A stretch of 64,000 nucleotides of DNA from Patulibacter minatonensis DSM 18081 (GCF_000519325.1 NZ_KI912613.1:4472469-4536468); one strand, 5' to 3'. Shown: positions 10,229 to 52,125, numbered from the stretch's first letter. Notes: a model not told the origin generated them from the sequence alone. Numbers and translations: made by a program.

Positions 10229-10403
10229 CGGGACCCTCCTTCTGACCAGCGGCAGCGCGGTGCCGATCGACGTGTTCGGCGATGCGTCGGGCCTTCGCGG
10301 TGTAGGTCGCTCGGTGCATCCCCTTGCCGGGGTCGTAGCCCCAGTTGCCACAGTCCTCGTAGTAGAGGACCTGGGCGATGGCGTGAATCTCCTTCTCGGT
10401 CAT
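10215..10403 (-). CDS. Small phage protein, unknown
   Basis: 62 residues: MTEKEIHAIAQVLYYEDCGN, then a basic helix. The ATG has AAAGGAGGGTCG upstream. Its C-terminus (RAAAGQKEGPDG) is coded by a start-associated element that supplies the ribosome-binding site of the next gene. Function unknown. Confidence 0.7.
   Translation of the reverse strand: MTEKEIHAIAQVLYYEDCGNWGYDPGKGMHRATYTAKARRIAEHVDRHRAAAGQKEGPDGAA
10231..10258 (-). repeat. Start-associated element, type 2
   Basis: On the minus strand reads CCGCTGGTCAG then AAGGAGGG ahead of the next ATG. It codes AAAGQ in the upstream gene. See also 11281, 34792, 34926 and 51918. Confidence 0.7.
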
Positions 10404-10624
10404 CGACCCTCCTTTTGACGTTCGGCCGGGTCGAACGGCTGCGGGTCGGAGTAGAGCGCCACGCGCTGCTCGGTCACGATGTCGTCGAACGGGGGGACCG
10501 CGTTCGCCATGTCGTTGATCTGCGCATCGAGCTTCGCGAAGTCCGTCGTCCAGTCACCGATGTCGCACGACGCCGGGTCCTTGCGGTCGACGCCGACGGC
10601 GCGGTACTGCTTCTCAGGCCACAT
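10400..10624 (-). CDS. Small phage protein, unknown
   Basis: 74 residues, MWPEKQYRAVGVDRK start, acidic middle (DIGDWTTDFAKLDAQINDM). ATGA overlap with the downstream gene. No known family; member of the early operon. Confidence 0.65.
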   Translation of the reverse strand: MWPEKQYRAVGVDRKDPASCDIGDWTTDFAKLDAQINDMANAVPPFDDIVTEQRVALYSDPQPFDPAERQKEGR

Positions 10625-10688
10625 CGGCGCCCTCCTCGGGCTCGTACTTCTGACGTTGCTCGGTGGCCCTCGTTGTGGGGTTCAGCAT
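10614..10688 (-). CDS. Possible 24-residue leader peptide
   Basis: MLNPTTRATEQRQKYEPEEG followed by four residues. Most of it is coded by a start-associated element, and its stop overlaps the next start by 11 bases. It may be a translated linker that couples the flanking genes rather than a functional protein. Confidence 0.35.
   Translation of the reverse strand: MLNPTTRATEQRQKYEPEEGADVA
10647..10673 (-). repeat. Start-associated element, type 1
   Basis: Minus strand: ACGAGGGCCACCGAGCAACG, then TCAGAAG. Codes RATEQRQK. It precedes the start at 10624. Confidence 0.7.
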
Positions 10689-10873
10689 CGGCGGCCCTTC
10701 GCTCGGCGGGCGGCACGGCGGCGCTCGTCCGCGCGAACGTCGGCGGCGTCGGCGACGAACGCCCCGCGGCCAGGCCAGCGCCCGGCGTGGAGGTCCCCGC
10801 CCAACGGACCGAGCGGCGCCCTGGCGATGAACCCGAGGGACTTCTTGATCGTGACCTTCGTCCGGCGCTTCAT
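10682..10873 (-). CDS. Small basic phage protein, unknown
   Basis: 63 residues, strongly basic (MKRRTKVTIKKSLGFIARAP at the start, ADERRRAARRAKGRRC at the end), suggesting nucleic-acid binding. The ATG follows CAGGAGCAGGG, part of a start-associated element. Not recognised. Confidence 0.65.
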   Translation of the reverse strand: MKRRTKVTIKKSLGFIARAPLGPLGGDLHAGRWPGRGAFVADAADVRADERRRAARRAKGRRC

Positions 10874-11280
10874 CCCTGCTCCTGACGCTGCTCGGTAGCC
10901 CTCGAAGCACGAGCAGCACGGGCAGCCAGCGACGCAGTGCGATCGCGTGCGGCGCGGTCGCACTCCGAGGCCAGTCGCATCCACTCCTTCCGTGGCACGC
11001 CGGGCTGCGCCTCGTCATCGGAGGGAGCCAGCCGGGACGCGCGACGCTTTCGCCAAGCGTCGTGCAGCACATCGGGCACCGGCAGCGTGCCACGGGCGTT
11101 GTTGCATCCCGCGTGAGCCAGGCGCATGTTGTTGACGGAGTAGGTGCCGCCCTTGCTAGAGGGTCGAGCATGGTCGATCGTCGCCCTCTCGGGACCGTGC
11201 CCGGCAAGCGGAACGCGTTGTCCGCACAGCCAGCAGATCCCGTGATCTCGCTTGTAGGTCGCCCGCAGGTTCGTGCTCAT
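10870..11280 (-). CDS. HNH endonuclease
   Basis: 136 residues. The HNH fold is visible: CWLCGQ and a second zinc pair (AHAGCN), the catalytic block TIDHARPSSKGGTYSVNNM, and the closing NMRLAHAGCNNARG. It cuts DNA with a single metal ion. Here it lies in the early operon, not next to terminase, so packaging is less likely than nicking or mobility. The C-terminus (SRATEQRQEQG) is coded by a start-associated element. Confidence 0.85.
   Translation of the reverse strand: MSTNLRATYKRDHGICWLCGQRVPLAGHGPERATIDHARPSSKGGTYSVNNMRLAHAGCNNARGTLPVPDVLHDAWRKRRASRLAPSDDEAQPGVPRKEWMRLASECDRAARDRTASLAARAARASRATEQRQEQG
10876..10908 (-). repeat. Start-associated element, type 1 (full form)
   Basis: Minus strand: CTTCGAGGGCTACCGAGCAG, then CGTCAGGAGCAGGG, leading straight into the ATG at 10873. 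This is the longest form and joins the type 1 and type 2 blocks. Confidence 0.75.
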
Positions 11281-11573
11281 CGCTCCTGCTCCTGACCAGC
11301 GGCAGGCACGTCGAGCAGCGACGGCTGCGCGTGCTTGCCCTTCTCGGGGCCCCAGCCGATCGGGCTGTGCGGGCACTTGGCCGGCAGGAAGTTCCCCAGG
11401 GCCTTGGCCTCGTCGAGCGATCCCAGGCGGAGGATGTCGCCACCGTCGGCGACGAACTTGGCGACCTCGCGCTTCTGCTCGCGGCCCATCAGGTGCGGCA
11501 TGCAGTCGACGAGCGTGATGCACCCGCACGGCTCGCGGCCGATCAGGACCGTCTCTCGCGTCTCGGTGCTCAT
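11277..11573 (-). CDS. Phage protein, unknown
   Basis: 98 residues with Cys-rich N-terminus (REPCGCITLVDCMPH) that may bind metal, and KFVADGGDILRLGSLDEAKA. The tail VPAAGQEQER is coded by a start-associated element feeding the HNH gene. Abuts the gene upstream. Confidence 0.65.
   Translation of the reverse strand: MSTETRETVLIGREPCGCITLVDCMPHLMGREQKREVAKFVADGGDILRLGSLDEAKALGNFLPAKCPHSPIGWGPEKGKHAQPSLLDVPAAGQEQER
11281..11305 (-). repeat. Start-associated element, type 2
   Basis: Minus strand: CTGCCGCTGGTCAGGAGCAG then GAGCG and the ATG of the HNH gene. Codes PAAGQEQER. Confidence 0.75.
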
Positions 11574-11798
11574 CTACTTGCCCTCCTGGGCGGCCTCGGC
11601 GAGCGTGTAGCCGTAGAAGCGCAGGACGTCGGTCAGGTCCTCGAGGTCGATCCAGACGCGCTCGCCGGAGTCGTTGATCCGGATGTGCAGGCCGGCGCCC
11701 TGGTCCAGGTCGATGACCGCCGGCAGGGTCACGAGATCCGTGTCCTCGTCGGGGCTGCTGGTGTAGCCGATGGTGGTCTTGATGCCTTCGATGCTCAT
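11574..11798 (-). CDS. Small acidic phage protein, unknown
   Basis: 74 residues: MSIEGIKTTIGYTSSPDEDT, then a beta-rich middle (GLHIRINDSGERVWIDLEDL). No family is recognised. ATGA overlap with the gene upstream. Confidence 0.7.
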   Translation of the reverse strand: MSIEGIKTTIGYTSSPDEDTDLVTLPAVIDLDQGAGLHIRINDSGERVWIDLEDLTDVLRFYGYTLAEAAQEGK

Positions 11799-12127
11799 GG
11801 TGTGGTGCCCTCCTGGGCGTCGGTGGTGGCGGGGCCGTCGAGTGCTTGCCGGGCAATCTCGTCGGGGTACTGCTTCTGGCGGGGGTCGCCGAACGTGCGC
11901 TCGATCTCAACCAGCGCGCGGCGGTACCGGTCGCGCTCGGCCTCCACGGCCTTCCGCTCCTTCACGAGCTCGTGGCCCAGCTCGAGCGCTTGGTGCTGGA
12001 CGCCGCCGAGGATGTCGGCGCGGACGTACTCGACCGGCTCGCCGTCGTGGCCGTACGGCCGAAGCTGGCCGGCGACCTTGACCGTGGCGCCGTGTGTTTC
12101 GTGCAGCCAGATGCGGTCAGTCGACAT
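11795..12127 (-). CDS. Phage protein with coiled-coil centre, unknown
   Basis: 110 residues. The N-terminus is beta-like (RIWLHETHGATVKVAGQLRP) with YVRADILGGV, and the central helix is charged (ELVKERKAVEAERDRYRRAL). Similar small proteins occur in actinophage early regions. Function unknown. Confidence 0.65.
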   Translation of the reverse strand: MSTDRIWLHETHGATVKVAGQLRPYGHDGEPVEYVRADILGGVQHQALELGHELVKERKAVEAERDRYRRALVEIERTFGDPRQKQYPDEIARQALDGPATTDAQEGTTP

Positions 12128-12395
12128 CGCTGGCCTCCTCTCGAACAGTCAAGGATTCGTTGACAGTTGTCCGGGATTCCCGAACAACTCCTGGCGACTG
12201 GATCTCGCGCTCGTCGTTCTTCCCGGCCCAGAACGCGCCGCGCGCGAACTCGATCAGGTCGTAGGCCTGGTCCTCGGCGTTCTCAGCAGCGAGCAGCCGT
12301 ACGGCGTCAAGCGCTGCGGTGTGGCGCGCGTCGAAGCCGTTGCTCATCTGCCCGGCGATCGCCCCGAGCGCTTCGATGCGATCCGCGCGGCTCAT
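12117..12395 (-). CDS. Small phage protein, unknown
   Basis: 92 residues from ATG 12395: MSRADRIEALGAIAGQMSNG, then a helical LLAAENAEDQAYDLIEFARG. ATGA overlap with the downstream end of the nuclease-like gene. Not recognised. Confidence 0.65.
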   Translation of the reverse strand: MSRADRIEALGAIAGQMSNGFDARHTAALDAVRLLAAENAEDQAYDLIEFARGAFWAGKNDEREIQSPGVVRESRTTVNESLTVREEASDVD

Positions 12396-13270
12396 CGGTC
12401 GCCGCCGTTCCGCCCGGGAGTAGAAGCCAGCGGCGAGGCGAGCTCTTCGGCCTTCGCCGCCATCTCGCGGTAGCGCTGCGCTTGCCGCTGAAGGTGATCG
12501 CGAAGCCGGTCGACCTCCTCGCTCCCGGCCAAGACCGCGCGCAGCGCCTTCCCGACCTCCGTGGCCTGGCCGTCGGGACCGTGACGGTGCCAGCCGTTGA
12601 TCGACACCCCTGCGGCGGCCTCGAACGCCTTGATCTCGGCGTCGAGTCGCGCGGCGTGGTTCTCCGCGCGTTCGATCGCGGCAGCGGCCATCCGGTTCGC
12701 GATCTCGTGCGTCTCGGCGTGCATCGCCGCGAGCTCTTCGTTCGTGACGCCCGACGTCTTCGTGGCCGCGCGCAGGAGCGCGGCGAGGAACGAGCGGTCG
12801 AGGCCCGGCGGGAGCGGCTGGACCTCGCCCTTCGTCCCGACCCACGGGCGCAGACGGGGCGCTTCGACCTTCTGGACCAGGCGGGCGGTGTCGCCGCCCC
12901 CCTGTGCGACGAGGAGCCCCCACGTCGGCGGGAGCTCGCCGTCCTTCACGATCGCGGCGTCGCCGACGACGAGCCAGAACCGATCTGCGCGCTCGCAGAA
13001 CCCGTCGGCCTTCTGCGGGTCCTTGAGCTCGCGGAGCCAGTCCGAGCGAGAGCACTTGATCTCGAAGGCGTCAATCGTCAGCCCGCGGGACTTCCACAGG
13101 TGCATCGCGTAGCCGTCGATCGTCCGGCGCGCGTCAAAGCCTGCGGCGTCGCGGACGTGCGGGATGAAGGCGTAGGCGTCGCCGTTGCCCGAGGTCTGCT
13201 CGTGGCGGCGGCGGAGCATGGCGATCATCTCGCCCTCGGTCCGCTTCACGATGGCCTTCGCGGGGCTCAC
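12392..13270 (-). CDS. MmcB-like PD-(D/E)XK nuclease-fold protein with coiled-coil tail
   Basis: 292 residues from GTG 13270, chosen because it overlaps the upstream stop as GTGA and has GGGAGA upstream. Residues about 40-110 hold DGYAMHLWKSRGLTIDAFEI followed by KCSRSDWLRELKD, matching the D..E-x-K layout of MmcB-type DNA-repair proteins, with ADRFWLVVGD after. The C-terminal third is helical and charged. DNA-processing role is inferred; activity is not proven. Confidence 0.65.
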   Translation of the reverse strand: MSPAKAIVKRTEGEMIAMLRRRHEQTSGNGDAYAFIPHVRDAAGFDARRTIDGYAMHLWKSRGLTIDAFEIKCSRSDWLRELKDPQKADGFCERADRFWLVVGDAAIVKDGELPPTWGLLVAQGGGDTARLVQKVEAPRLRPWVGTKGEVQPLPPGLDRSFLAALLRAATKTSGVTNEELAAMHAETHEIANRMAAAAIERAENHAARLDAEIKAFEAAAGVSINGWHRHGPDGQATEVGKALRAVLAGSEEVDRLRDHLQRQAQRYREMAAKAEELASPLASTPGRNGGDR

Positions 13271-14469: not shown

Positions 14470-14657
14470 CGGAACACCTCGGCATCCGACAGGGCCGATG
14501 CCAGTGCCGCGGCGGCCTCCGCGAGCTTCGCGGCCTTGCGCTGCGCCGCGTCGCGGGACAGCGGGGTCGCGGACTCCATCAGCAGCCGGTGCAGGTCCTG
14601 CACGTCCTCACCGGTCTGCACGACCTGCGGCAGGACGAGATCCCTCACCGCGGTCAT
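14466..14657 (-). CDS. Small phage protein, unknown
   Basis: 63 residues, mostly helix (SRDAAQRKAAKLAEAAAALA). It is directly upstream of, and ATGA-coupled to, the preceding small gene, and directly downstream of the ATPase gene. Function unknown. Confidence 0.65.
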   Translation of the reverse strand: MTAVRDLVLPQVVQTGEDVQDLHRLLMESATPLSRDAAQRKAAKLAEAAAALASALSDAEVFR

Positions 14658-15409
14658 GCGGGCACCTCAAGCTGCAGCCCCGCGGGCTCCTGCACCCCGC
14701 CGGCCATCAGCGCCTTGCGGTACGTGTCGAGCCACTCGGACAGGTCGAGTTGGCGGGATGTGCCGAGCCCACCGGACCGGTCGCCACCGATGCGTCCGTT
14801 GTGCTCGACGAGGACACCCATGTACTGCGGGCCGTCGTCCGTCTCGTGGCGACCGCAGTACGCGATCACGTCCGCTTCACCGCAGACCTTCGCGGTCGAT
14901 GCGCCGCCGATCATCGGCTCGACGATCCGGTCGCCGGTGTCGGAGTCGGACACCTTCTGATGCGCCAAGAACACGACGTTGACGGGCAGGTCGCGCATCC
15001 CGACGACGAACCCCTCGACGATCTTCGCGATGTCTCCCCACTGCTGGATCGAGGGCTGCTTGCCGCGGCCGATGTTCCGGCCGAGCTGATCGCGGACCTT
15101 GCCGATGGTGTCGATGACGACGGTCTTGACCTTCGGTGCCATCCCGTCACGGACGTGGAGGTACACCTGGTCGAGGATCGGCTTGATCTGGTCGTCCTTC
15201 TCGACGCGGACCTCGTGGATGTCGGAGCCGCGGGAGGCGGCAACCTTGCGGGCGTAGCCGAGTGCGCCACCGCCCTCGAGGTTGACCCAGAGGATCGGTC
15301 CGGGAGCGGTGGCGGCTGCGGCGGTCTTCCCGCTCTTCGGGGGTCCGTAGAGGAGGACGTTGAAGGTGTCGGGCGCGTTCGGCGCGTCGACGAAGTTGAG
15401 GGGGCTCAT
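14654..15409 (-). CDS. Sak4-like RecA-fold ATPase (ssDNA annealing/recombination)
   Basis: 251 residues. Walker A GPPKSGKT (22-29), Walker B TVVIDT (about D100) and a Q-containing block VVFLAHQKVSDSDTGD place it in the AAA_24/Sak4 group of phage single-strand recombinases, which are RecA-like cores. SSB is encoded about 700 bp upstream in the same operon; that pairing is typical, since Sak4 proteins depend on SSB. No partner exonuclease is evident except possibly the MmcB-like protein. Confidence 0.85.
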   Translation of the reverse strand: MSPLNFVDAPNAPDTFNVLLYGPPKSGKTAAAATAPGPILWVNLEGGGALGYARKVAASRGSDIHEVRVEKDDQIKPILDQVYLHVRDGMAPKVKTVVIDTIGKVRDQLGRNIGRGKQPSIQQWGDIAKIVEGFVVGMRDLPVNVVFLAHQKVSDSDTGDRIVEPMIGGASTAKVCGEADVIAYCGRHETDDGPQYMGVLVEHNGRIGGDRSGGLGTSRQLDLSEWLDTYRKALMAGGVQEPAGLQLEVPA

Positions 15410-16119: not shown

Positions 16120-16590
16120 CTAGAAGGGGATGCTGTCCGCGTCATGGCCGCCGGCCGGGACGGGCTGGCGCTGCTGCTGCGGCGCCGGGGGCTGGTCGAA
16201 GTCGCCGCCGCCCCACCCACCGGACTGCTGGGAGGTCTGGCCTCCCCCGCCCTGCTCGTCGCGGCCGCCGATGAACTGGACGTCCTGCGCGACGATCTCG
16301 ATCGCCTCGCGCCGGTTGCCGTCCTTGTCCTGGTACTCGCGCCAGCGCAGGCGTCCGTCGACGGCGACCTGGCGGCCCTTGGTCAGGAACTTCGCCGTGG
16401 CGTCGGCGGAGTTGCCGAAGACCGTGACGTTGAAGAAGTTCGGGACGTCGTCGTATGCGCCGGTCTGCTGGTTCTTGCGGCGCTCGTTGACGGCGACCCG
16501 CATGGAGCAGACAGAGCCGCCGGACGGGAGGCCGCGGAGCTCGGGATCGCGGGTCAGGTTTCCGACGATCGTGACGCTGTTGATGGGCAT
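16120..16590 (-). CDS. ssb: Single-stranded DNA-binding protein
   Basis: 156 residues. The OB fold spans about 1-108 (MPINSVTIVGNLTRDPELR, NFFNVTVFGNSADATAKFL, KGRQVAVDGRLRWREYQDKD). It is followed by a Gly/Gln/Pro-rich linker and the acidic partner-binding tip DADSIPF. It coats ssDNA and recruits replication and repair partners. Complete, same operon as the Sak4-like protein. Confidence 0.96.
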   Translation of the reverse strand: MPINSVTIVGNLTRDPELRGLPSGGSVCSMRVAVNERRKNQQTGAYDDVPNFFNVTVFGNSADATAKFLTKGRQVAVDGRLRWREYQDKDGNRREAIEIVAQDVQFIGGRDEQGGGGQTSQQSGGWGGGDFDQPPAPQQQRQPVPAGGHDADSIPF

Positions 16591-19331: not shown

Positions 19332-19814
19332 CTAACTCCGTGTCTTCGTACGCCCCGGACCGGCCCGCTCGACATGAAGACCCGCGAGCTCGGCGGTGTT
19401 CGCCCCCACAGCTTTAAATCTCACCGCGAACCCTGGGGTCTCGTGCGCTTCGGCGTACCGCTTGGACACACTGAGTCGAACGATCTGTGAGTCATCGGGC
19501 AGCACCCCGCCCTTCACGGCGGCGTCAAGCACGGACTTCGCGAGGTTGTCGACATCACCCGCACGGGCCGGCGGCCACCGGGGAGCACTCCGGGCAAGAC
19601 CTCCGTTCCTCAACAGGTGGGACGGCTTGCGCGGAAGCACGACCGCCAGGTCAACGACCGTCTCGACGGCCGGAAGAGCGGGTACCTTCACGGCGAGGGT
19701 TCGCGCGAGCTCGGCGGCCTGGGAGGTGTACCAGCGTGGCATGAACGTGCCGTTCCGCGTGACGCGCGGCCGCGGCGACGGCCGCAGAACACACGGAACC
19801 CACACGTCGCTCAC
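19332..19814 (-). CDS. RusA-like Holliday junction resolvase
   Basis: 160 residues from GTG 19814, which overlaps the upstream lysozyme stop (GTGA). The signature GDVDNLAKSVLDAA and GGVLPDDSQIVRLSVSKRY holds the acidic metal-binding residues of the RusA family, which resolves four-way junctions. It is placed after the lysis genes, at the end of the late leftward operon, which is unusual for an early function. Confidence 0.85.
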   Translation of the reverse strand: MSDVWVPCVLRPSPRPRVTRNGTFMPRWYTSQAAELARTLAVKVPALPAVETVVDLAVVLPRKPSHLLRNGGLARSAPRWPPARAGDVDNLAKSVLDAAVKGGVLPDDSQIVRLSVSKRYAEAHETPGFAVRFKAVGANTAELAGLHVERAGPGRTKTRS

Positions 19815-20476
19815 GACGAGCGGGCCAGCAGAGATCGGTACCGCTCGCGGCGCCACGCCTTCGCCCACCCATCGCGCTTCGCGGCGTGCCAGATCCGCTT
19901 TCGCTGAGCCCGCATGTACCGACGCAGCACCTTCCGGCGCTCGAGGTCACGGTCCTCGCGCCGCAGCTGGTCGTACTCCCTGATCCACCGCTTCTCGTCC
20001 GAGGCGTACCCGGCGAGCGCATCCTTCGGCCTGGCTGCCGACAGGAACAGCGCACGTTCGGCCTTACGCCGACGCGTCAGCCCCGCGAGAACCGACCCGC
20101 CCGCCTTGTTCCACAGCAGGAACCCGTCGGCCGCCGCGTGCATCCGGCCGGCCCGGAGCGCCCGCCCGACCGTCGACGACGCGACGATCGCGCCGGGCCC
20201 GCAGTTGTAGACCAGCGACACGAGCGCGTCGAACTGGTGCTGCGTCAGCTTCACCCCAGCGTTGACAAGGACGTTGACGTACGGGGCGTACTTGCGGTCC
20301 AGGTCCCGCGCGAGAAGCGCCTTCCCCTCCGCGAGTGTCAGATGCGGCGACGAAGGACCGACTCCCTCGATGTGGCCGTACCCGATCGTCCACACACCGA
20401 CGGCGTCACGGTACGGGCGGCTGCTGAACCCCTCGAACTCCTTGATGAGTTCGACACCGGCGTCACTGATCTTCAT
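19811..20476 (-). CDS. Endolysin, GH24 muramidase
   Basis: 221 residues. The N-terminal lysozyme domain has the E15-D24-T30 triad in IKEFEGF and YRDAVGVWTIGYGH; it cleaves the glycan strand of peptidoglycan. Residues about 155-221 form a basic, Trp-containing module (DEKRWIREYDQL to RYRSLLARSS) that also ends the second endolysin of this phage, so it is a likely wall-binding domain. No signal peptide, so export should need the holin. Confidence 0.92.
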   Translation of the reverse strand: MKISDAGVELIKEFEGFSSRPYRDAVGVWTIGYGHIEGVGPSSPHLTLAEGKALLARDLDRKYAPYVNVLVNAGVKLTQHQFDALVSLVYNCGPGAIVASSTVGRALRAGRMHAAADGFLLWNKAGGSVLAGLTRRRKAERALFLSAARPKDALAGYASDEKRWIREYDQLRREDRDLERRKVLRRYMRAQRKRIWHAAKRDGWAKAWRRERYRSLLARSS

Positions 20477-20789: not shown

Positions 20790-21410
20790 CTAGGTGCGGG
20801 CGGTGAGGCTGCGGTAGCGGGTTGTGCGGGCGGCCTTGGACCAGCCGTCCTTCTGGGCGGCTCGCCAGATCGACTTGCGGCGAGCCGTCATGCGACGCAC
20901 CAGCGCGGCGCGGGTCTTCGCGCTGGGGTGCTTGTCGAACGCTCTGATCCAACGGCGTTCGTCAGCGGGGTACGCGGCGAGGGGGTCGAGCGCCTTGCCG
21001 ATCGCTGTGTAAGTGCCGGGGCGCCACTTGAGATGCCACCACTCGGTCGGAGCGTCGCTCCACTTCTTCGCGAACCCGTACTTCGCGCCGATGTGATCAA
21101 CGATCTGGCGCATCTGCGGGGTTGCGAGGTCGACCGCCAGGCCGAGCCCGTGGTTCGACGTTCCGGGGCGGGCAGCGAGGTTGCCGCGGCCAGAGCGGTA
21201 CAGGGCCCAGAAGTACTCCTGGTCCTTCAGCGGCCGGTACGCGGTTCGTGCGGAGCTCGTGCGAAGCGTCACGCCGTAGCGGCGTTCGGACTCGGCGTTC
21301 ATCGCAAGGAACGCCCGTGCGGCGTCGCGGCGGAGGGAGCACCGCTCGCCGTTCGTGGCGTGCGTGATCTCGCCGAGCTCCGACGACTTGAGTTGGCCGT
21401 TGGCGCTCAT
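20790..21410 (-). CDS. Endolysin, M15 (VanY-type) D,D-peptidase
   Basis: 206 residues. Zinc ligands are seen in SNHGLGLAVD (H87, D94) and EWWHLKW (E123, H126); RTAYRPLKDQEYFW is the usual substrate-side block. It cleaves peptide stems of peptidoglycan. Residues about 146-206 (DERRWIRAFDKH to RYRSLTART) repeat the C-terminal module of the GH24 endolysin. Together the two enzymes cut glycan and peptide. Confidence 0.9.
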   Translation of the reverse strand: MSANGQLKSSELGEITHATNGERCSLRRDAARAFLAMNAESERRYGVTLRTSSARTAYRPLKDQEYFWALYRSGRGNLAARPGTSNHGLGLAVDLATPQMRQIVDHIGAKYGFAKKWSDAPTEWWHLKWRPGTYTAIGKALDPLAAYPADERRWIRAFDKHPSAKTRAALVRRMTARRKSIWRAAQKDGWSKAARTTRYRSLTART

Positions 21411-26047: not shown

Positions 26048-26319
26048 CAGGCGGACGGGGTCCACTTCATGAGCCAGAGGTCGCCGGTGTTGTCGACGAT
26101 CACCAGTCCGGTGTCGCCGTCCATCGGAAGATCGGGGCCGCGGAGCTCCCAGTTCGTGCAGGTCCAGCGGTTCTCAGGCGACAGGGCGGGGATGACCAGC
26201 TTCAGCGGGTCGTTCTCGCTGGCGGGGTTCGATCGGATCGTGGCTCGGTACCCGCCGTTCCTCAGGCCGGTGCTGCGCGTTTGGCGGTGCGCTCGGACCT
26301 GTTCGTCGGCTAGGGCCAC
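26047..26319 (-). CDS. Baseplate-region protein, first gene of its operon
   Basis: 90 residues, GTG start. Late position between hub and gpW suggests a baseplate or spike part (RWTCTNWELRGPDLPMDGDT, then DLWLMKW). Its start is about 3 bases from the promoter-like motif, so the mRNA should have almost no leader. Family not recognised. Confidence 0.6.
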   Translation of the reverse strand: MALADEQVRAHRQTRSTGLRNGGYRATIRSNPASENDPLKLVIPALSPENRWTCTNWELRGPDLPMDGDTGLVIVDNTGDLWLMKWTPSA

Positions 26320-26322
26320 TCC

Positions 26323-26359
26323 GTGAGCGTACTAGCGTTCTCGGATGGTATTTCGTCGC
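26323..26359 (-). promoter_or_regulatory. Late-promoter-like motif, site 1
   Basis: 37 bp. On the minus strand CGAAATACCATCCG, 5 bases, GCTAGTACGCTCAC. 31 of 37 positions equal those of the site at 34529-34565. It ends 3 bases before the operon start. Confidence 0.7.
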
Positions 26360-34491: not shown

Positions 34492-34528
34492 GGGGTCCTC
34501 ACGCGTAGGTGGAAGCGGAGATCACCCG

Positions 34529-34565
34529 GTGAGCGTACTAGCAGATACGGATGGTATTTCGACGC
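34529..34565 (-). promoter_or_regulatory. Late-promoter-like motif, site 2
   Basis: 37 bp: minus strand CGAAATACCATCCG, 5 bases, GCTAGTACGCTCAC. Near-identical to the site at 26323. It lies 38 bases upstream of the sheath operon start and next to the divergent accessory island. Confidence 0.7.
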
Positions 34566-34595: not shown

Positions 34596-34958
34596 ATGAG
34601 TGAGATGACGGCCCTTGAGGTCGAACGCAAAAAGCAGGGGATGTCGCGGGATCAGTTGGCGGCGCGGTCGGGGATCACGACGCGGACGATCCAGAACCAC
34701 GAGCGGTACGGCATGACGCCGCACTGGGCGGTGAAGAGGGCGCTGGCGGAAGGGCTCGGGTGCGACGTGGGTCGCGCCTTCCCGTCGCCTACCGCTGGTC
34801 AGGAGCAGGGTCGGTGCGCGGGCTGCGGCGCGGCGGGCGAACCGCTCGAACAGGTCACGACCACGACCGCGCCGATCGAGACGTTCCGGATGTGCGTCGA
34901 CAACTTCGCGTGCCGCGACCGCCGCCGCGCTGGTCAGATGCAGGAGCCGGGCGCATGA
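34596..34958 (+). CDS. HTH protein fused to a zinc-binding tail
   Basis: 120 residues. HTH: KKQGMSRDQLAARSGITTRT, IQNHERYG. Then a PTAGQEQGR linker coded by a start-associated element, and a putative zinc ribbon (CAGCGAAGEPLEQ, FRMCVDNFACRDRR). The linker suggests fusion of two former genes. It opens the plus-strand accessory island. Probably a regulator of that island. Confidence 0.7.
   Translation: MSEMTALEVERKKQGMSRDQLAARSGITTRTIQNHERYGMTPHWAVKRALAEGLGCDVGRAFPSPTAGQEQGRCAGCGAAGEPLEQVTTTTAPIETFRMCVDNFACRDRRRAGQMQEPGA
34792..34815 (+). repeat. Start-associated element, type 2 (intragenic)
   Basis: CCGCTGGTCAGGAGCAGGGT followed by CGGTG. It sits in frame inside the HTH gene at the domain boundary. 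Confidence 0.75.
34926..34957 (+). repeat. Start-associated element, type 2
   Basis: CCGCGCTGGTCAGATGCAGG, then AGCCGGGCGC and the ATG at 34955. Codes RRAGQMQEPGA at the end of the HTH gene. Confidence 0.65.
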
Positions 34959-35242
34959 TCGGCCGGTGGCGCTCGTGGAGGGCGTGGCGAGAGGAGCGGC
35001 GCATCATGGACGAGGTCCTGGAGCTGCGGGTCGCTGAGCGTGACGAAGCGCGCCGTGAGCGCGACGACGCGCTGGCGGACCTTGCGACGCTGCTGTCCTG
35101 GGCCGACGAAGCCCGGGCTCAGATCGGGCCGATCCAAGTGGCGATCGACGTTCAGAAGGGGTTGCTCTGCCATCCGGCGATCAAGCTCAACGAGCGCCGC
35201 CGGCGGGCTTCCGCTTCGAGGGCGGAGGGTGTCGACCGATGA
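34955..35242 (+). CDS. Small helical protein of the accessory island
   Basis: 95 residues, Trp/Arg-rich start (MIGRWRSWRAWREERR), then a charged coiled coil (RVAERDEARRERDDALADLA). Overlaps both neighbours by ATGA. C-terminus (SASRAEGVDR) comes from a start-associated element. Unknown function. Confidence 0.6.
   Translation: MIGRWRSWRAWREERRIMDEVLELRVAERDEARRERDDALADLATLLSWADEARAQIGPIQVAIDVQKGLLCHPAIKLNERRRRASASRAEGVDR
35213..35241 (+). repeat. Start-associated element, type 1
   Basis: GCTTCGAGGGCGGAGGGTGT, then CGACCGATG. Supplies the ribosome-binding site for the gene at 35239. Confidence 0.75.
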
Positions 35243-35514
35243 GCGCCTACGTCCTGGGGATCGGCGACTACTTCGCTGCTCGTCGCCCCGATGGCGTGGT
35301 GCTCGACGGCTCCCGAGTTCGAGTCGTGTGGGCCGACGGCGAGATGCGGGTCCAGCGGTACGCGTCCGCATCGTCGAGCAGCGGCGAGGGGTGGGGCGAC
35401 TACCTGCTGGCCTCGTCCGACGGACCCGCCCAAGCGCTCATCGACCTGATCGCGCGCGCTTCCACATCGAGGGCTACCGAGCAAGGTCAGAAACAGGGTC
35501 CCGATGTCGACTGA
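35239..35514 (+). CDS. Accessory-island protein, unknown
   Basis: 91 residues: beta-rich GDYFAARRPDGVVLDGSRVR, then VVWADGEMRVQRYAS. The C-terminus (TSRATEQGQKQGPDVD) is from a full-length start-associated element and overlaps the next gene by 11 bases. Not recognised. Confidence 0.6.
   Translation: MSAYVLGIGDYFAARRPDGVVLDGSRVRVVWADGEMRVQRYASASSSSGEGWGDYLLASSDGPAQALIDLIARASTSRATEQGQKQGPDVD
35461..35506 (+). repeat. Start-associated element, type 1 (full form)
   Basis: TCCACATCGAGGGCTACCGA, then GCAAGGTCAGAAACAGGG, ending at the ATG of the next gene. Plus-strand counterpart of the elements at 10647 and 10876. Confidence 0.75.
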
Positions 35515-35992
35515 TCCGCCCGTGATCTGGGTCGTCGTCGGCAACGACGGGCGCCCTGGCTACATCGCTGACGAAGGCGACCAGGCCGAGTACGACATCG
35601 GCCCGAACCTCGCCGCCGAGCTTCGTGAGCGCGACGCACGGCTCGTCCGCTACGCGCCTACTCCGAGGGCGGAGCCGGTCTGCCCCGACTGCGACGGAAC
35701 AGGCAAGTACACGTTCAGCGACGGCGGCGCGGGACCGGACATGACCGACACCTGCGAGTCGTGCGACGGCACCGGCCGCGCCGCTACTTCGAGGGCGGAG
35801 CCTGAGGGGATCGACGACGGCGGCGAGGGCGCAGTGCACCGCCGCGAGAACTGCGACCGCTGCGGCAACTCGGGAGAGGTCCCCGGTCGTCGGGTTCCCG
35901 GCGACGACCCTCGCTACCGGCTCCCGTGCCCCGACTGCCGCGCCGATGCGTGGAACCCCGCTTCGAGGGCGAAGGACGTTCCTGATGCGTGA
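35504..35992 (+). CDS. DnaJ-type zinc-finger protein with repeated linker
   Basis: 162 residues. N-terminal beta domain (VIWVVVGNDGRPGYIADEGD). Then CPDCDGTG, CESCDGTG, CDRCGNSG and CPDC, the CxxCxGxG zinc pattern of DnaJ-like proteins. Three copies of the start-associated linker (TPRAEP, TSRAEP, ASRAKD) separate the segments, hinting at assembly from smaller genes. Binding role only inferred. Confidence 0.7.
   Translation: MSTDPPVIWVVVGNDGRPGYIADEGDQAEYDIGPNLAAELRERDARLVRYAPTPRAEPVCPDCDGTGKYTFSDGGAGPDMTDTCESCDGTGRAATSRAEPEGIDDGGEGAVHRRENCDRCGNSGEVPGRRVPGDDPRYRLPCPDCRADAWNPASRAKDVPDA
35659..35676 (+). repeat. Start-associated element, type 1 (short, intragenic)
   Basis: TACTCCGAGGGCGGAGCC, in frame before the first zinc pair of the DnaJ-like gene. 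Confidence 0.6.
35783..35802 (+). repeat. Start-associated element, type 1 (intragenic)
   Basis: GCTACTTCGAGGGCGGAGCC, in frame between the two zinc halves of the DnaJ-like gene. Confidence 0.7.
35959..35987 (+). repeat. Start-associated element, type 1
   Basis: CGCTTCGAGGGCGAAGGACG, then TTCCTGATG. Gives the ribosome-binding site of the HNH gene at 35985. Confidence 0.75.
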
Positions 35993-44665: not shown

Positions 44666-46761
44666 GCGGTGCCCCTGTCGTCAACGGCCAGTGCCTGCTC
44701 GGACTCCCACGTGACGACGTACAGGCAGCGGCACCTGTCGCCGCCCTCGCACCCGGCGTAACCTCCGGTCGGGAAGTCCTGCTCGGCTTCGTCGACCGAG
44801 TCGTACTGCGTGCCGTCGAGATCAGCGCACGCGGAGCACGTGTTGCCATCGAGCACGCTCGAGGCGTAGATGTCGCGGATCTGGCTCTCGGATGCGCGGG
44901 TCTGCGTCTGCCTGCCCGCCGTCTGTGCACGGGTGGTGTCCGCGCCGGCGATCTGCGTCAGCTGGGCGTCGGTGAGCTGCGTGTCGATCTGGTCCTTGAC
45001 TGCTGCTGCGACAGCGGCAGGATCGGCGGCCTCGGACGCCAAGGCCTGCGTGCGGTTCGTGACCTCTTCGGCGACGGTCGTCGCGATCTGCTGCGACGCA
45101 AGGGTCGCGGCAGTCGACGCTGCGGTGGCGTACTCGACGTTCGCCTCCTGAACACGGGTCCCGGCCTCGCGGGCATCCGCGGCGACTGTGCCGGCGGCCT
45201 GCTGCGCCGTTGACTCCAGGACGCTGGACACGGCCTCGAGCTGCGCTTGCGGAACGGCGTCGAGGGCGGCTGCTCGTGCGTCCTCGCGGAGCGTCTCGAG
45301 GGCGCCGAGGACGGTGTTCGCGGTTGCGACTACCTCGATCGCGGCCTTCAGCTGCTCGCCACGGACAGCGCGGTACGCGGTCGTGACTTCCGCGACGGCG
45401 TCTTCCCAGTCGCCATGTATCTCGGCGAAGTTCGTGGACCGCTCGGCAGCACGCAGCTGACGGGTTGCCTGCGGAACACCAGGCACCTTGCCACCGTCCG
45501 GGGCCGCTCGGGCTGCGGCGACGTGGTCTGTGCCGCACGTGCATCCACGGGACGCAGCGACGACATCGGCCGGTTCGTCCACGGAAGGCTGGGCCGGCGG
45601 CGGGGTGTTCACGACGATCGGCGTTGCCGGCTTCGGCTTGTCGCACGTGACGCGCGGCCTCTTCACCAGGCCCCGGTAGTCGTTGAACTCCGTCCACCGG
45701 GACACGGACTGGCGGTTGAACTCCTCCGCGATGTCAGCGGCAACCGCGATTCGTGCGGACGCTGCGATGTCCTCGTGGACCTCCCCCAGCGCACGCGACC
45801 CCGACTCGGTTGAGCCGAGCTGGACGACCTGCTCCGACCACGCGCGGCTCATCGCCTCTTCGTGGTGCTTGATCGACTGCAGCGGGTCGGTGACCGCACC
45901 CGTGATGCCGACGTTCTCGGCGGTCTGGCCCTGCTGAAGGCCGATCGCTGCGAGCTCGTCCACGATCGTCTGCGAGAACGCGTCGGTCAGCTCCTCGATC
46001 GTGTCGTGGTCGTCGCCTTCCTTGCCGGTGACGACCCACGTGCCGTTCGCGGACTTGTTGTGGCGGACCTGATCGACGCGGTACAGCTCCTGGTTGCAGA
46101 GCCAGTGCATGTACAGCGGGCGAAGCATCGACCGGCCAACCGGGTCGCCCTGCCGCGGCTTGTACGCCCACCGCTGCACACGGACGGCATCGAGAACGAC
46201 GGGCTCGGGGCCGAGCAGATCGACACCGAGCGACTGCAGGGTGCCGTCGGGTTCGACCATCCACTTTCCGGGGTTGATCGTTTCCTGCTCGATCGGCGCG
46301 AACCGCTTGATGCGCCACCAACCGGGGTCCATGTCGGTGTCGCCGACGATCTCGCAGACGGCGTGGCCGTACAGGGCGTACGTGAGTGCGTAGTCGAGGA
46401 GCTGGTGGAACCCGACCTGGTACCGGCGGGTCGAGTCGTCGTCGGCCTGGCCGATCGGGAGGTCGAGGTCTTCGGCGAGTTTCGCTGCGGCGTCGGGCGG
46501 CAGGTCGCCGGGCTCGAGGCGCCAGGGGAGGTTGTGGATCGGCTGGAAGAACGCGGACTCGAGCGCGACGATGTGGCCGTAGGTCCGCATCTCGGCGATG
46601 ACGTCGTTGCGCCAGGGGTACGTCCATTCGGGGACGCGTTCCATGACGCGCGTGGCGATCTGGGTCCAGGTCGCGGCCGCGGCGGTGGTGTTGCCGGCGG
46701 TGGCGAGGACGGGACGGCGGACGGTGTCTTGGCCGGTCGGTGCGTTTGGCGCGATTGCCAC
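44662..46761 (-). CDS. Portal protein fused to head morphogenesis protein
   Basis: 699 residues, GTG start. Residues 1 to about 380 match DUF935/Mu gp29-type portals (ALESAFFQPIHNLPWRLEPG, DDDSTRRYQVGFHQLLDYAL). After a Pro/Ala linker with CTCGTDH, the C-terminal third is helical and ends with a Mu gpF/SPP1 gp7-like cysteine-rich motif (DGNTCSACADLDGTQYDS, GGDRCRCLYVV). These two are separate genes in Mu. First gene of its operon, right after a promoter-like motif. Confidence 0.85.
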   Translation of the reverse strand: MAIAPNAPTGQDTVRRPVLATAGNTTAAAATWTQIATRVMERVPEWTYPWRNDVIAEMRTYGHIVALESAFFQPIHNLPWRLEPGDLPPDAAAKLAEDLDLPIGQADDDSTRRYQVGFHQLLDYALTYALYGHAVCEIVGDTDMDPGWWRIKRFAPIEQETINPGKWMVEPDGTLQSLGVDLLGPEPVVLDAVRVQRWAYKPRQGDPVGRSMLRPLYMHWLCNQELYRVDQVRHNKSANGTWVVTGKEGDDHDTIEELTDAFSQTIVDELAAIGLQQGQTAENVGITGAVTDPLQSIKHHEEAMSRAWSEQVVQLGSTESGSRALGEVHEDIAASARIAVAADIAEEFNRQSVSRWTEFNDYRGLVKRPRVTCDKPKPATPIVVNTPPPAQPSVDEPADVVAASRGCTCGTDHVAAARAAPDGGKVPGVPQATRQLRAAERSTNFAEIHGDWEDAVAEVTTAYRAVRGEQLKAAIEVVATANTVLGALETLREDARAAALDAVPQAQLEAVSSVLESTAQQAAGTVAADAREAGTRVQEANVEYATAASTAATLASQQIATTVAEEVTNRTQALASEAADPAAVAAAVKDQIDTQLTDAQLTQIAGADTTRAQTAGRQTQTRASESQIRDIYASSVLDGNTCSACADLDGTQYDSVDEAEQDFPTGGYAGCEGGDRCRCLYVVTWESEQALAVDDRGTA

Positions 46762-46766
46762 TGCCC

Positions 46767-46803
46767 GTGAGGGTACTAGCGATCACGGACGCTATTTCAG
46801 CGC
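46767..46803 (-). promoter_or_regulatory. Late-promoter-like motif, site 3
   Basis: Minus strand: TGAAATAGCGTCCG, 5 bases, GCTAGTACCCTCAC. Same 37-bp frame as sites 1 and 2 with several base changes. Ends 5 bases before the portal GTG. Confidence 0.65.
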
Positions 46804-46820
46804 TATGCGCTGGTTTGAGG

Positions 46821-48840: not shown

Positions 48841-49043
48841 CCTTCAGCCTCGCGCTCTGCAAGAAGGCGGGCACGCATCGGCTTTCCGCCGCGGCGCTCC
48901 CACTCAGCGAAGGCGTCCCAGTACACCGCGTATTCGATCTTGTCGAGGCCGGCGCCAAAGCGTGTGGCTGCTTCGCCTGCGTCCTCGAACGCATTGACGA
49001 TGGCGTCGAGTTCGTCGTCGGTGAAGGCGTCCCACCGGCTCAT
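48837..49043 (-). CDS. Small phage protein, unknown
   Basis: 68 residues, acidic (MSRWDAFTDDELDAIVNAFE), helical. ATGA overlap with the terminase small subunit. Not recognised. Confidence 0.65.
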   Translation of the reverse strand: MSRWDAFTDDELDAIVNAFEDAGEAATRFGAGLDKIEYAVYWDAFAEWERRGGKPMRARLLAEREAEG

Positions 49044-49294
49044 CAGCGGGCCTCGAATCGAAGGATCGCGTGCGGACCGACCAGAAGGTTCCTCCGGGCC
49101 TCATCGACTGCCCGGGTCAGCCGTGTGATGCGGTCGGGGCCTTCGCCGAAGGGTTTCGGCGTGACGCCCACGGTCCAGACCTCAGTGATGAGGCTGATCG
49201 GTTCGGCGTTTCCTCCGGGGTGCAACTGGTCGATGATGTCGTCCCGTTCGACGTAGAGGACCCAGGGCATGTCCTTCAGTTCGTCGATCGTCAT
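49043..49294 (-). CDS. Small phage protein, unknown
   Basis: 83 residues: MTIDELKDMPWVLYVERDDI, then RITRLTRAVDEARRNLLVGP. Shares a base with the next gene (TGATG). Not recognised. Confidence 0.65.
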   Translation of the reverse strand: MTIDELKDMPWVLYVERDDIIDQLHPGGNAEPISLITEVWTVGVTPKPFGEGPDRITRLTRAVDEARRNLLVGPHAILRFEAR

Positions 49295-49512
49295 CGGTCG
49301 GTCCGCCTGACGGGGATGAGTTCGATGGGCGGGTCGTTGACCAGATCGTCGTGCAGCACCTGTGCCGCGTTCGCCAACGCCTTCAAGGTCATCTCGCCGT
49401 TGATGGTCGTCATGCGGCGTTGCTGTGCCCAGCCGGCCGACGTCATCGCTGCGGTCGACCGGACCTTGAGGTGCCAGATCGTGGGTGCGGGGTGGTCGAG
49501 TGTGAGCGTCAT
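49291..49512 (-). CDS. Small phage protein, unknown
   Basis: 73 residues with a beta-like start (MTLTLDHPAPTIWHLKVRST) and helical end. First gene of the short cluster leading into terminase; a variant of the late promoter motif lies about 60 bases upstream. Confidence 0.6.
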   Translation of the reverse strand: MTLTLDHPAPTIWHLKVRSTAAMTSAGWAQQRRMTTINGEMTLKALANAAQVLHDDLVNDPPIELIPVRRTDR

Positions 49513-49575
49513 GCTGTACTCGGCGCAGAGGTCGGCGAGGGCTTGGAGTGGGTCGTGTGGGTGTTCGCCGATCCC

Positions 49576-49611
49576 TTGATGGTATCGCGCATATCGGCTG
49601 TTTCAGGACGC
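49576..49611 (-). promoter_or_regulatory. Late-promoter-like motif, variant site 4
   Basis: Minus strand: GCGTCCTGAAACAGCCGATA, then TGCGCGATACCATCA. Keeps the GAAA.A and GATACC/ACCAT parts of the motif but with different spacing. It is in the only gap between the DnaB gene and the terminase cluster. Confidence 0.4.
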
Positions 49612-51015
49612 ATTCGGGAGCGGGAGGTCGTGGTTCGGGCCGCGGTCGGATGACGGTTGCGGCGCTTGTTGGATCTGGTGTTCCTTCGCGGTGCTGACGA
49701 TGCGCGGGTAGCTCGCTTGAAACGTGAGCGGCACGACTCCGGTGCCGCCGTGCCTGTTCTTCGCGACGTTGATCTCGACGATCCCGGGCGTTTCGGAGCG
49801 CTTGTTGTAGTACTCGTCGCGGTACATCAGCAGGACTTGGTCGGCGGTCTGTTCGACGTCCCCGGATTCGCGGAGGTCCGACAGGTGCGGGCGTTTGTCG
49901 TCGCGCGTTTCGCACTCGCGGTTCAGCTGGCTGAGCGCGATGACGGGGCATTCGAGGTCGAACGCGAGGGTCTTGAGCTCGTTTGCCATCTCGGCGACCT
50001 GGAGGTGCCGGGGGGTCTTGGGGTCGGTGGGTTTGAGGAGCTGCAGGTAGTCGACGACGATCAGGGCGAGGGGGTCTTTGGCGTGTTGGCGGTGCGCGAT
50101 GCGTACGAGTTCGCGGACTTGGAGGCCGCGTCGGACGACGACGTGGATGCGGTTCGCTTCCTCCGTTTCGAGGAGCCCCATGATGCGGCCCCAGGCGGGG
50201 TCCTTGTTCGCTCCGGGCCGGCGGCCCTCGCCGTGCGTGAGCCAGTGGCCGGGCGTGGACGTGCGGCCTGAGACGTAGCGGGCGGCGACTTCTTGGTCGG
50301 TCATCTCGAGGGAGCCGAAGAGGACGGCGCCTTGGGTGGCGGCGTTGGCGGTGATGTCGACGGCGAATGCGGTTTTGCCCATGGCGGGGCGGGCGCCGAT
50401 GACGCAGAGGTTGCCGGGCTCGAGGCCTTTGAGGACGTGGTCGAGGTCGGGGTAGCGCGTTTGGAGGCCGGGGTTGTGTTCGGGGTTTTCCCAGGCGGGG
50501 ATGGTTGCTTCGGCGATGTCGGCGATGGTGCGGGTGGGGCGGCCGTCGGTTGATGCGGCGGCGGCCATGGCTTGGTCGTGTGCGACGAGGATGTCGGCGG
50601 GTTTTTGGTCGGGGGCGTGCGCCTGGCGGATCGCGGCGGTGCAGGCGTTGATGATGCGTCGGCGTTCGGCGAGGTCGAGGAGTCGTGCGGCGTGTTCGGG
50701 GTTCGCTTTCGGGTTCGCGTTGTAGACGATCTGCGCGGCGGTTTCGAGTACGGCGTCGCGGTCGTGGTAGCCCTCGATGAGGTCGGGGTGGCGTTGTAGG
50801 ACGTCGTTGAGGACGTGGTGGTCGATGGGGCCTTTGGCGTGGTCGATGCGGTGTTGGACGACGCGCCAGAGGCTGATGTGGTGGTCGTGGGTGAAGTCGG
50901 TGTCGGTGAGCTTGTCGTCGAGGGCGTAGCGTTCGGCGGCTTGGCGGCTGGTGAGGGCGGCGCCGAGGATGTGCTGTTCGAGGTCGTGGTCTTGCGGGGG
51001 GGTTTGGTCGTTCAC
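49603..51015 (-). CDS. Replicative DNA helicase, DnaB-like
   Basis: 470 residues, GTG start. N-terminal DnaB domain (DLEQHILGAALTSRQAAERY), then RecA-like motor: Walker A ARPAMGKT (208-215), LFGSLEM block, Walker B LIVVDYLQLL, H3 ALSQLNRECETRDDKRPHLS and arginine finger region DQVLLMYRDEYY. Unwinds the fork of phage DNA. Start preceded by GAAGGAGGCCGA within a start-associated element. Confidence 0.95.
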   Translation of the reverse strand: MNDQTPPQDHDLEQHILGAALTSRQAAERYALDDKLTDTDFTHDHHISLWRVVQHRIDHAKGPIDHHVLNDVLQRHPDLIEGYHDRDAVLETAAQIVYNANPKANPEHAARLLDLAERRRIINACTAAIRQAHAPDQKPADILVAHDQAMAAAASTDGRPTRTIADIAEATIPAWENPEHNPGLQTRYPDLDHVLKGLEPGNLCVIGARPAMGKTAFAVDITANAATQGAVLFGSLEMTDQEVAARYVSGRTSTPGHWLTHGEGRRPGANKDPAWGRIMGLLETEEANRIHVVVRRGLQVRELVRIAHRQHAKDPLALIVVDYLQLLKPTDPKTPRHLQVAEMANELKTLAFDLECPVIALSQLNRECETRDDKRPHLSDLRESGDVEQTADQVLLMYRDEYYNKRSETPGIVEINVAKNRHGGTGVVPLTFQASYPRIVSTAKEHQIQQAPQPSSDRGPNHDLPLPNAS

Positions 51016-51197
51016 TCGGCCTCCTTCGCCCTCGATGTGGAAGTGATCGAGTCGAAGATGCGGACGGCCTCCGTCAGCACCGATCCCGCGTCCTCTCGCT
51101 CCCGGGAGCACGGCTCCAGATGACCGAGGTCACGAACGCAACGCCAGTCCCAGCCCCCGTACCGGACGGTCCCCCGGCACCTCTGCCGCTTATCCAC
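51012..51197 (-). CDS. Small Cys/His phage protein
   Basis: 61 residues from GTG 51197. RCRGTVRYGGWDWRCVRDLG, then HLEPCSRERED may bind zinc. The C-terminus STSRAKEAE is coded by the element feeding the DnaB start. GTGA overlap downstream. Unknown role. Confidence 0.65.
   Translation of the reverse strand: MDKRQRCRGTVRYGGWDWRCVRDLGHLEPCSREREDAGSVLTEAVRIFDSITSTSRAKEAE
51013..51045 (-). repeat. Start-associated element, type 1
   Basis: Minus strand: ACTTCCACATCGAGGGCGAA, then GGAGGCCGAGTG, ending on the DnaB start codon. Confidence 0.7.
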
Positions 51198-51477
51198 GGT
51201 CGGCCTCCTCGGCCCTCGAAGTAGCGTTCCCGGCTCGCACCGCGCCGCAGCGCAAGCAGACCTCGCCGCTCTCCACAGCGGAGTTGCGGGCATCGACCCA
51301 CTGGTGCTCGCAAGCCCTCGAAGTAGCGTTGGTAGCGACCGCCCAGTACATGGACGCCGCGCAGCACGCGAAGCCGTAGACCATGGCGCCCCACCCAGCG
51401 AGCAACATCGCCGTGCCTTCGCCCATGAAAACGACGCCGATCAGGAACCAGATGGTTCGGAAGTCGGAAGCGGTCAT
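51190..51477 (-). CDS. Membrane protein fused to a zinc ribbon
   Basis: 95 residues. Two hydrophobic segments (FRTIWFLIGVVFMGEGTAML, GWGAMVYGFACCAASMYWAV), then NATSRACEHQW, a zinc-ribbon-like CEHQW..CLRCG, and a second NATSRAEEADRG. The TSRA linker marks a likely gene fusion. Function unknown. Confidence 0.6.
   Translation of the reverse strand: MTASDFRTIWFLIGVVFMGEGTAMLLAGWGAMVYGFACCAASMYWAVATNATSRACEHQWVDARNSAVESGEVCLRCGAVRAGNATSRAEEADRG
51195..51230 (-). repeat. Start-associated element, type 1
   Basis: Minus strand: GGAACGCTACTTCGAGGGCC, then GAGGAGGCCGACCGTG. It provides the ribosome-binding site of the gene starting at 51197. Confidence 0.75.
51311..51330 (-). repeat. Start-associated element, type 1 (intragenic)
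   Basis: Minus strand AACGCTACTTCGAGGGCTTG, in frame at the boundary between membrane and zinc-ribbon parts of the gene. Confidence 0.75.
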
Positions 51478-51920
51478 CGACGCTCATCCCCCGGAGTGAG
51501 GTCGCGCTCCATGAAGCGCTGGATCAGCCGCTCAGCGGCCGCGCGGAAGCGCTCGGTCTCAGCGGACGCGGGCTCGTACGGGAACGACTCGTCACCCTCC
51601 GCAGCGCGCAGGGCCGCGATACCGGCGTCGTCGAGGTCGACGATCGCCGTCGCCTGCTCCATCTTGCGCAGCCCGCCGCGGTGCAGCATGACCGCCTGCC
51701 ACGTCCCGGCACCGCGTTCCCGGACGCACGTCACCATGCACGCCATCGCCTCGCCGTCGACGTAGGAGAGCGCCGCCGCGAGGTCGTAGCGGTCACGGTC
51801 CTTGCCCGGGTCGAGGAGACGCACCTCGTGCTGGCCGATGACGAACTCGCCGTGGCCGTCCCGCGCGAGAGCGCGACGGCACAGCAGCTCACCCGCGCTG
51901 CGGATCTTCGCCTCAGGCAC
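51474..51920 (-). CDS. Phage protein, unknown (right early operon)
   Basis: 148 residues from GTG 51920. Alpha/beta composition (GHGEFVIGQHEVRLLDPGKD, then CMVTCVRERGAGTWQAVMLH), acidic helical tail (ASAETERFRAAAERLIQRFM). Overlaps the gene upstream by 8 bases within a start-associated element. Not recognised. Confidence 0.65.
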   Translation of the reverse strand: MPEAKIRSAGELLCRRALARDGHGEFVIGQHEVRLLDPGKDRDRYDLAAALSYVDGEAMACMVTCVRERGAGTWQAVMLHRGGLRKMEQATAIVDLDDAGIAALRAAEGDESFPYEPASAETERFRAAAERLIQRFMERDLTPGDERR

Positions 51921-52125
51921 GACCCTGCTCCTGACCAGCGGCGGCGTCGAGCTGGGCCCGCAGCCGGCGTGCCTCGTTACGGGCACCATTGCGCTGCTCG
52001 ATCAGAATCGACGCGGTCTTGCGGCTCGCGCCGAGCTGGCGCTTCAGCCGAGCATTCTCGCCCTCGAGCGTCAGGTTGCGCCCAAGGGCGCGTTGGGCGA
52101 TGGCGTGTGCGTGTCCGTAGCTCAT
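51913..52125 (-). CDS. Small coiled-coil phage protein
   Basis: 70 residues, almost entirely charged helix (NLTLEGENARLKRQLGASRK, then ARRLRAQLD), ending AAAGQEQGRA from a start-associated element. ATGA overlap upstream. Function unknown. Confidence 0.6.
   Translation of the reverse strand: MSYGHAHAIAQRALGRNLTLEGENARLKRQLGASRKTASILIEQRNGARNEARRLRAQLDAAAGQEQGRA
51918..51944 (-). repeat. Start-associated element, type 2
   Basis: Minus strand: CGCCGCTGGTCAGGAGCAGG, then GTCGTGC with the GTG start of the next gene. Confidence 0.75.

Follow-up and report, generated by a model that had tools for sequence, protein, structure and literature searches.

Start-linked repeats of phages have been published for the cluster K mycobacteriophages, as start-associated sequences (SAS/ESAS; PMC3203893), while boundary sequences have been proposed for mosaic genomes built by recombination, and could not be found at most mosaic boundaries (PMC3029335). 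Here we analyze two families of short repeats, U and V, carried by a prophage of Patulibacter minatonensis DSM 18081 within a window of 64,000 nucleotides (nt; the whole stretch analyzed, GCF_000519325.1, NZ_KI912613.1:4472469-4536468), part of a 5.52 Mb single-contig genome. An earlier note, made from the sequence alone, had described them as repeats of types 1 and 2 at gene junctions. Weight-matrix scans find 11 copies of U (consensus YACWTCGAGGGC) and, with a second matrix, nine of V (consensus GCTGGTCAGGAGCAGGG) in the prophage, all 20 lying within coding sequence, sense-oriented and in a single reading frame of the upstream gene (11/11 and 9/9), in which U reads as a TSRA-like and V as a GQEQ-like peptide. 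With little more than even confidence, we read U and V as in-frame boundary (linker) sequences with which a temperate phage exchanges open reading frames (ORFs) and micro-domains, while V would also supply a ribosome-binding site. Both elements are confined to three small-ORF islands of the prophage, which were checked by eye, genes having been called with a simple codon-based script:

9782-11573, minus strand: island 1, small ORFs with U/V tails, including the HNH gene 10873-11280
34605-35992, plus strand: island 2, HTH/four-Cys gene 34605-34958, two small ORFs and gene 35504-35992
51012-52125, minus strand: island 3, Cys-rich ORF 51012-51197, and ORFs 51190-51477, 51474-51920 and 51913-52125

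The 15 positions listed in the earlier note all carry the described sequence, and both families are over-represented relative to shuffled sequence. The exact core of U, CTTCGAGGGC, occurs six times in the window against 0.28 expected (0/100 shuffles reach six), the other type 1 sites of the earlier list being the variants CATCGAGGGC, CAACGAGGGC and CTCCGAGGGC, and the V word GTCAGGAGCAGG, with one mismatch allowed, occurs four times against 0.46 expected (0/100 shuffles reach four). In an unbiased word count, U and V words are among the most over-represented 12-16-mers of the prophage. Leave-one-out scores of the U matrix are 14.1-21.7 over the 11 sites, and the best match that is not U scores 17.1; it falls at 50775, within the DnaB gene, and is read there in another frame. 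A long "full form" attributed to type 1 is exact at 10876 and only approximate at 10647 and 35461. The copies of U, one of which (S3) is new, are:

9813-9824, minus strand: S3, CCACATCGAGGGC, PTSRA, 36 nt before the stop of 9782-10228
10666-10677, minus strand: S2, CCACAACGAGGGC, PTTRA
10898-10909, minus strand: S1, GTGCTTCGAGGGC, RASRA, at the end of the HNH gene
35212-35223, plus strand: S4, CCGCTTCGAGGGC, SASRA
35463-35474, plus strand: S5, TCCACATCGAGGGC, STSRA
35659-35670, plus strand: S6, CCTACTCCGAGGGC, PTPRA, internal, 327 nt before the stop
35785-35796, plus strand: S7, GCTACTTCGAGGGC, ATSRA, internal, 201 nt before the stop
35959-35970, plus strand: S8, CCGCTTCGAGGGC, PASRA, 27 nt before the stop
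51028-51039, minus strand: S11, TCCACATCGAGGGC, STSRA, just 5' of the GTG start of the DnaB-like helicase
51212-51223, minus strand: S10, GCTACTTCGAGGGC, ATSRA, downstream border of the Zn-ribbon module
51314-51325, minus strand: S9, GCTACTTCGAGGGC, ATSRA, internal, upstream border of the Zn-ribbon module

Those of V, three of which directly follow a U (S1, S2 and S5), are:

10234-10250, minus strand: GCTGGTCAGAAGGAGGG, AGQKEG
10407-10423, minus strand: diverged, GAACGTCAAAAGGAGGG, ERQKEG, absent from the earlier list
10642-10658, minus strand: diverged, directly after S2
10874-10890, minus strand: GCAGCGTCAGGAGCAGGG, directly after S1
11284-11300, minus strand: GCTGGTCAGGAGCAGGAG, before the ATG of the HNH gene
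34794-34810, plus strand: internal, between the HTH domain and a four-Cys segment
34929-34945, plus strand: GCTGGTCAGATGCAGGA, after the four-Cys segment
35482-35498, plus strand: GCAAGGTCAGAAACAGGG, directly after S5
51923-51939, minus strand: GCTGGTCAGGAGCAGGG, before the GTG at 51920

V contains a purine-rich Shine-Dalgarno-like stretch (AGGAG/AAGGAGG-like), which at most sites lies 13-22 nt 5' of the following start; the starts 3' of V lie at 13-30 nt and in differing frames. Non-internal copies of U end 5-43 nt before the next start, with GGAGG often within a few bases 3' of the element. That nearly all repeats stop some 15 bases or less short of a start codon, as the earlier note had it, is true of most type 2 sites; it fails for the four internal copies, and the other U copies end at 5-43 nt. 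The regularity that the note caught only in part is the frame: the TSRA-like and GQEQ-like peptides occur in one frame at every copy, and four of these copies lie inside genes rather than at the C-terminus of the upstream product.

Neither U nor V contains a stop codon in any of its three frames, so the frame lock is not forced by frame avoidance. Were frames random, its probability would be (1/3)^10 for U and (1/3)^8 for V, for copies that are related by descent and not independent. A 400 kb sample of host sequence scanned with the same U matrix gives 10 matches. All of them are in frame 0 (xFEG) of ordinary genes, and the TSRA frame has none. Other sense matches inside prophage genes also fall in the xFEG frame. 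In this frame, U uses host-preferred codons (TAC TTC GAG GGC, CAC ATC GAG GGC), and it may therefore descend from ordinary coding sequence that came to be read in a different frame. In the TSRA frame, arginine is encoded by AGG at 11/11 copies, although this codon makes up 4.8% of arginine codons in prophage genes, and ACT, ACA or GCT is kept before TCG, ACT and ACA together accounting for about 10% of threonine codons. The ratio of nonsynonymous to synonymous differences (pN/pS) in the upstream frame is 0.94 for V and, for U, 0.27 with the last (Ala) codon and 0.65 without it. Given the frame lock and the rare codons that the copies share, common descent or selection acting on the DNA is a better explanation than convergent peptides. 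RNA folding of five junctions gave none better than shuffles (z 0.28, -1.03, -1.23, -0.76 and 1.17), and a hairpin was rejected.

The four internal copies (U S6, S7 and S9, and V at 34794-34810) lie 129-327 nt before the stop, beside short Cys-rich modules. Gene 34605-34958 is composed of an HTH domain (HTH_3), V, a 38-residue four-Cys segment, V and the stop, and gene 35504-35992 has two four-Cys segments between three U copies, one resembling DnaJ-type zinc fingers (PF00684, just below the cut-off) and the other Anti-TRAP (PF15777, just above the cut-off). Gene 51190-51477 runs from a hydrophobic N-terminus through U, a Zn-ribbon-like module and a second U to the stop, and the ORF between S10 and S11 contains three Cys and one His. 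Overall, Cys content is 2.68% in element-bearing genes versus 0.87% in other small prophage genes (p 3.6e-6), and from their ligand patterns the modules are predicted to bind zinc.

51229-51312, minus strand: Zn-ribbon micro-module CEHQWVDARNSAVESGEVCLRCGAVRAG, 84 nt, between S9 and S10 (coordinates derived from gene 51190-51477)

This module has relatives in Xanthomonas and Erwinia phages (59%), and its homology to the Xanthomonas phage protein begins and ends at the U copies; the Xanthomonas phage gene itself has no such flanking direct repeat. A closer relative is present in an unrelated virus record of 41.9 kb (IMGVR_UViG_3300048999_000178, hereafter L043). In the prophage, the module stands between exact 17-nt U repeats (S9/S10) spaced 102 nt apart, whereas the repeats on either side of it in L043 are exact over 18 nt, differ in sequence (GCTGAGTCGGGTGGGGAG), are likewise 102 nt apart and have no further copy in the record at up to three mismatches. 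Repeat lengths such as those of the two genes were not reached in 300 simulated sequences. Between prophage and L043, module DNA is 74% identical, versus only 25-27% for the flanks. Because the L043 module sits between unrelated repeats at the same 102-nt spacing, the direct repeats around the Zn-ribbon appear to go with joining, and not with one regulatory sequence. In L043, a second Cys/His-rich segment (CAEC...CPEH; L043:2971-3192) follows the repeat-bounded Zn-ribbon, and this gene therefore also looks like a micro-module array.

On these grounds, exchange at U and V can be pictured as follows. A small ORF ends at its 3' side in U or V, which is read in one fixed frame. Since this frame is common to all copies, crossing over or annealing inside one of them would join any upstream body to any downstream part with the upstream frame intact. 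The joined frame would continue to the stop codon of the acceptor junction or, where another module follows directly, through that module as an in-frame fusion. V would bring the ribosome-binding site of the next gene, and a swapped-in gene would therefore arrive with its start signal. The prophage also encodes an AAA_24 protein (14654-15409, minus strand) and a single-strand binding protein (SSB; 16120-16590, minus strand), a candidate phage recombination pair; the former is possibly Sak4-like, a family-level guess, and an annealing or strand-exchange system formed by the two is plausible. Joining would proceed by homologous or single-strand-annealing recombination, perhaps through these two proteins, and we infer that the copies persist because of it.

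Several observations weigh against exchange at these sites. Searches of IMG/VR, the phage collection and the order's 231 further genomes turned up no close relative and no alternative arrangement, and exchange itself was not seen. The shared identity is short (8-17 nt), and in a phi80 test recombination across a region of 67% identity, with 11 bp as its longest perfect match, stayed below the detection limit of 1e-8 (PMC3945230). In favor of exchange, the sequences on the two sides of U vary independently (Mantel r -0.17 to -0.04), as reassortment at the U core would give, but with 11 sites the test has low power, and Shine-Dalgarno constraint explains part of the downstream likeness. Finally, the pN/pS values of U leave some room for its peptide as a selected feature.

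Among the other explanations, it is unlikely that U and V are SAS-like translation or regulatory elements, binding ribosomes or a factor and setting downstream expression. The Shine-Dalgarno-like stretch before most starts, the frequent GGAGG soon after U and the precedent of cluster K (PMC3203893) all speak for such a role, whereas the upstream frame is fixed at 20/20 copies, bases 5' of the Shine-Dalgarno part are conserved as well, four copies lie inside genes with no start nearby, and no conserved RNA fold was seen in the five junctions. The same points bear on the two possibilities raised in the earlier note. That of portable translation-coupling modules fits V in part, through its Shine-Dalgarno-like stretch, and does not account for the fixed frame, the conserved bases 5' of that stretch or the internal copies. 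That of recombination seams is the better supported half, owing to the frame lock, the conservation of DNA over peptide, the copies at domain borders of fused genes and the direct repeat of L043. Codon bias and Shine-Dalgarno constraint alone do not explain the elements. Selection for the C-terminal peptide itself (TSRA..., AGQEQG), for instance as a signal for targeting, interaction or degradation, would agree with the shared peptide frame and with the low pN/pS of U when the final Ala codon is counted, but this is highly improbable given the retention of rare codons, the near-neutral ratio of V and the location of several copies inside genes.

The direct repeats might instead be insertion footprints, left by mobile Cys-rich micro-domains that duplicate a 17-18-nt target upon insertion. 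The two independent Zn-ribbon cases, with exact repeats 102 nt apart and unrelated in sequence, would fit this, as would the restriction of the L043 repeat to its two places and repeat lengths exceeding the 300 simulations in both genes; nevertheless, we consider it quite unlikely, since U occurs at many plain gene ends with no module between copies, neither a transposase nor an end signature was seen, and the Xanthomonas phage has the module without a repeat. It is improbable that the copies are neutral remnants, spread by past duplication and kept by chance without present function: no phenotype or cross-phage conservation is known and the prophage stands alone in the collections searched, but the flanking bodies are unrelated where the elements are alike, and no copy lies elsewhere than at an ORF end or a module border. 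We retain the linker reading, and more tentatively raise a generalization that we regard as doubtful, namely that small multi-domain proteins of phages are assembled from metal-binding micro-modules of about 30-60 codons, exchanged like cassettes at repeated, frame-locked DNA linkers, with unrelated phages using unrelated linkers around the same module in the same 102-nt unit.

The prophage carrying the islands is 47.8 kb long (about 7.73-55.53 kb), lies at tRNA-Val and encodes an integrase, a DnaB-like helicase, a replication initiator, a terminase, a portal protein and a tape measure protein:

7731-55619, strand not applicable: prophage, bounded by two identical 89-nt att repeats
7731-7819 and 55531-55619: att repeats, 89 nt, identical, overlapping tRNA-Val(gac)
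7828-9003, minus strand: tyrosine-type integrase, next to the left att

A 43-nt repeat (GTGAGCGTACTAGC...CGGATGGTATTTCGnCGC) is present in three copies that are 77-81% identical (26317-26359, 34523-34565 and 46761-46803), at or near intergenic gaps, one of them just 5' of the island 2 HTH gene; it may be a promoter or operator. The neighboring minus-strand ORFs 19811-20476 and 20790-21410 have similar C-termini (WRRERYRSLLARSS, ARTTRYRSLTART) and are perhaps duplicated lysis genes.

IMG/VR holds the same prophage as a single 47,049 bp record, the fetched pieces of which are identical to the window. Searches with its portal protein recovered no relative from IMG/VR or from the order's 231 further genomes, and prophage DNA has no match in the phage collection. 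Element pattern scans of IMG/VR returned the prophage itself and two single V-like matches (L006 and L007), taken as chance, each record having one exact copy and that of L007 lying within a coding frame. Among 201 genomes, real copies were found solely in the prophage's own genome, the remaining matches having two to three mismatches and an ordinary coding context. DnaB scans recovered distant helicases only, mostly betaproteobacterial. A 48-nt junction query gave only weak matches in phages (E 0.3 and worse), of which the ones to Streptomyces phage Joe and Skermania phage SPI1 were rejected as opposite to gene direction, and tblastn with five element-bearing or neighboring ORFs gave no or uninformative matches. 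Relatives of the HNH protein in three other genomes are without the tail, and too distant to tell gain from loss. A Zn-ribbon profile found no locus in the genome contigs, and just the two known loci in IMG/VR.

The origin of the joints at gene and domain borders in phage mosaics is an old question, for which this prophage offers about 20 candidate joints in one genome, where the fixed upstream frame would make every exchange productive. If the linker reading is true, the islands would provide a system for measuring recombination at joints and domain fusion, with a second virus sharing the module between different repeats.

The likeness to cluster K SAS, to which the repeats had been compared, is loose. 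Both are asymmetric short repeats near starts, with a Shine-Dalgarno-like part, and precede unrelated genes (PMC3203893). However, the prophage consensus sequences do not match the SAS consensus GGGATAGGAGCCC with up to two deviations, and placement just 5' of starts fits most V sites and fails for the four internal copies. With the same scripts, 10/11 SAS sites of phage TM4 are intergenic versus 0/20 for U and V, and the TM4 SAS are near-exact words in nine copies, 14-20 nt before starts, while U and V are diverged, coding and frame-locked. When the prophage was surveyed together with TM4 and six further actinophages (both strands counted; a small sample with an ad hoc gene caller), 22% of the occurrences of over-represented 11-mers fall, in sense, in the last 75 nt of genes in the prophage, versus 0-5% in the others.

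The gene cassettes of integrons are small ORFs that all point the same way and carry a repeated site at each 3' end, an arrangement that the U/V islands share in a works-like comparison. No integron integrase was identified among the proteins examined, and U and V differ from attC in being short, coding and without a hairpin in the five folded junctions. The lambdoid boundary (linker) sequences are similar in being short shared sequences at gene borders, proposed to serve homologous recombination (PMC3029335); going by their description, U and V differ from them in reaching about 20 copies per genome, in three islands, in one upstream frame and partly inside fused genes. As expected of boundary sequences, the same short sequence borders unrelated HNH, HTH, DnaJ-type Zn, Zn-ribbon and unknown ORFs.

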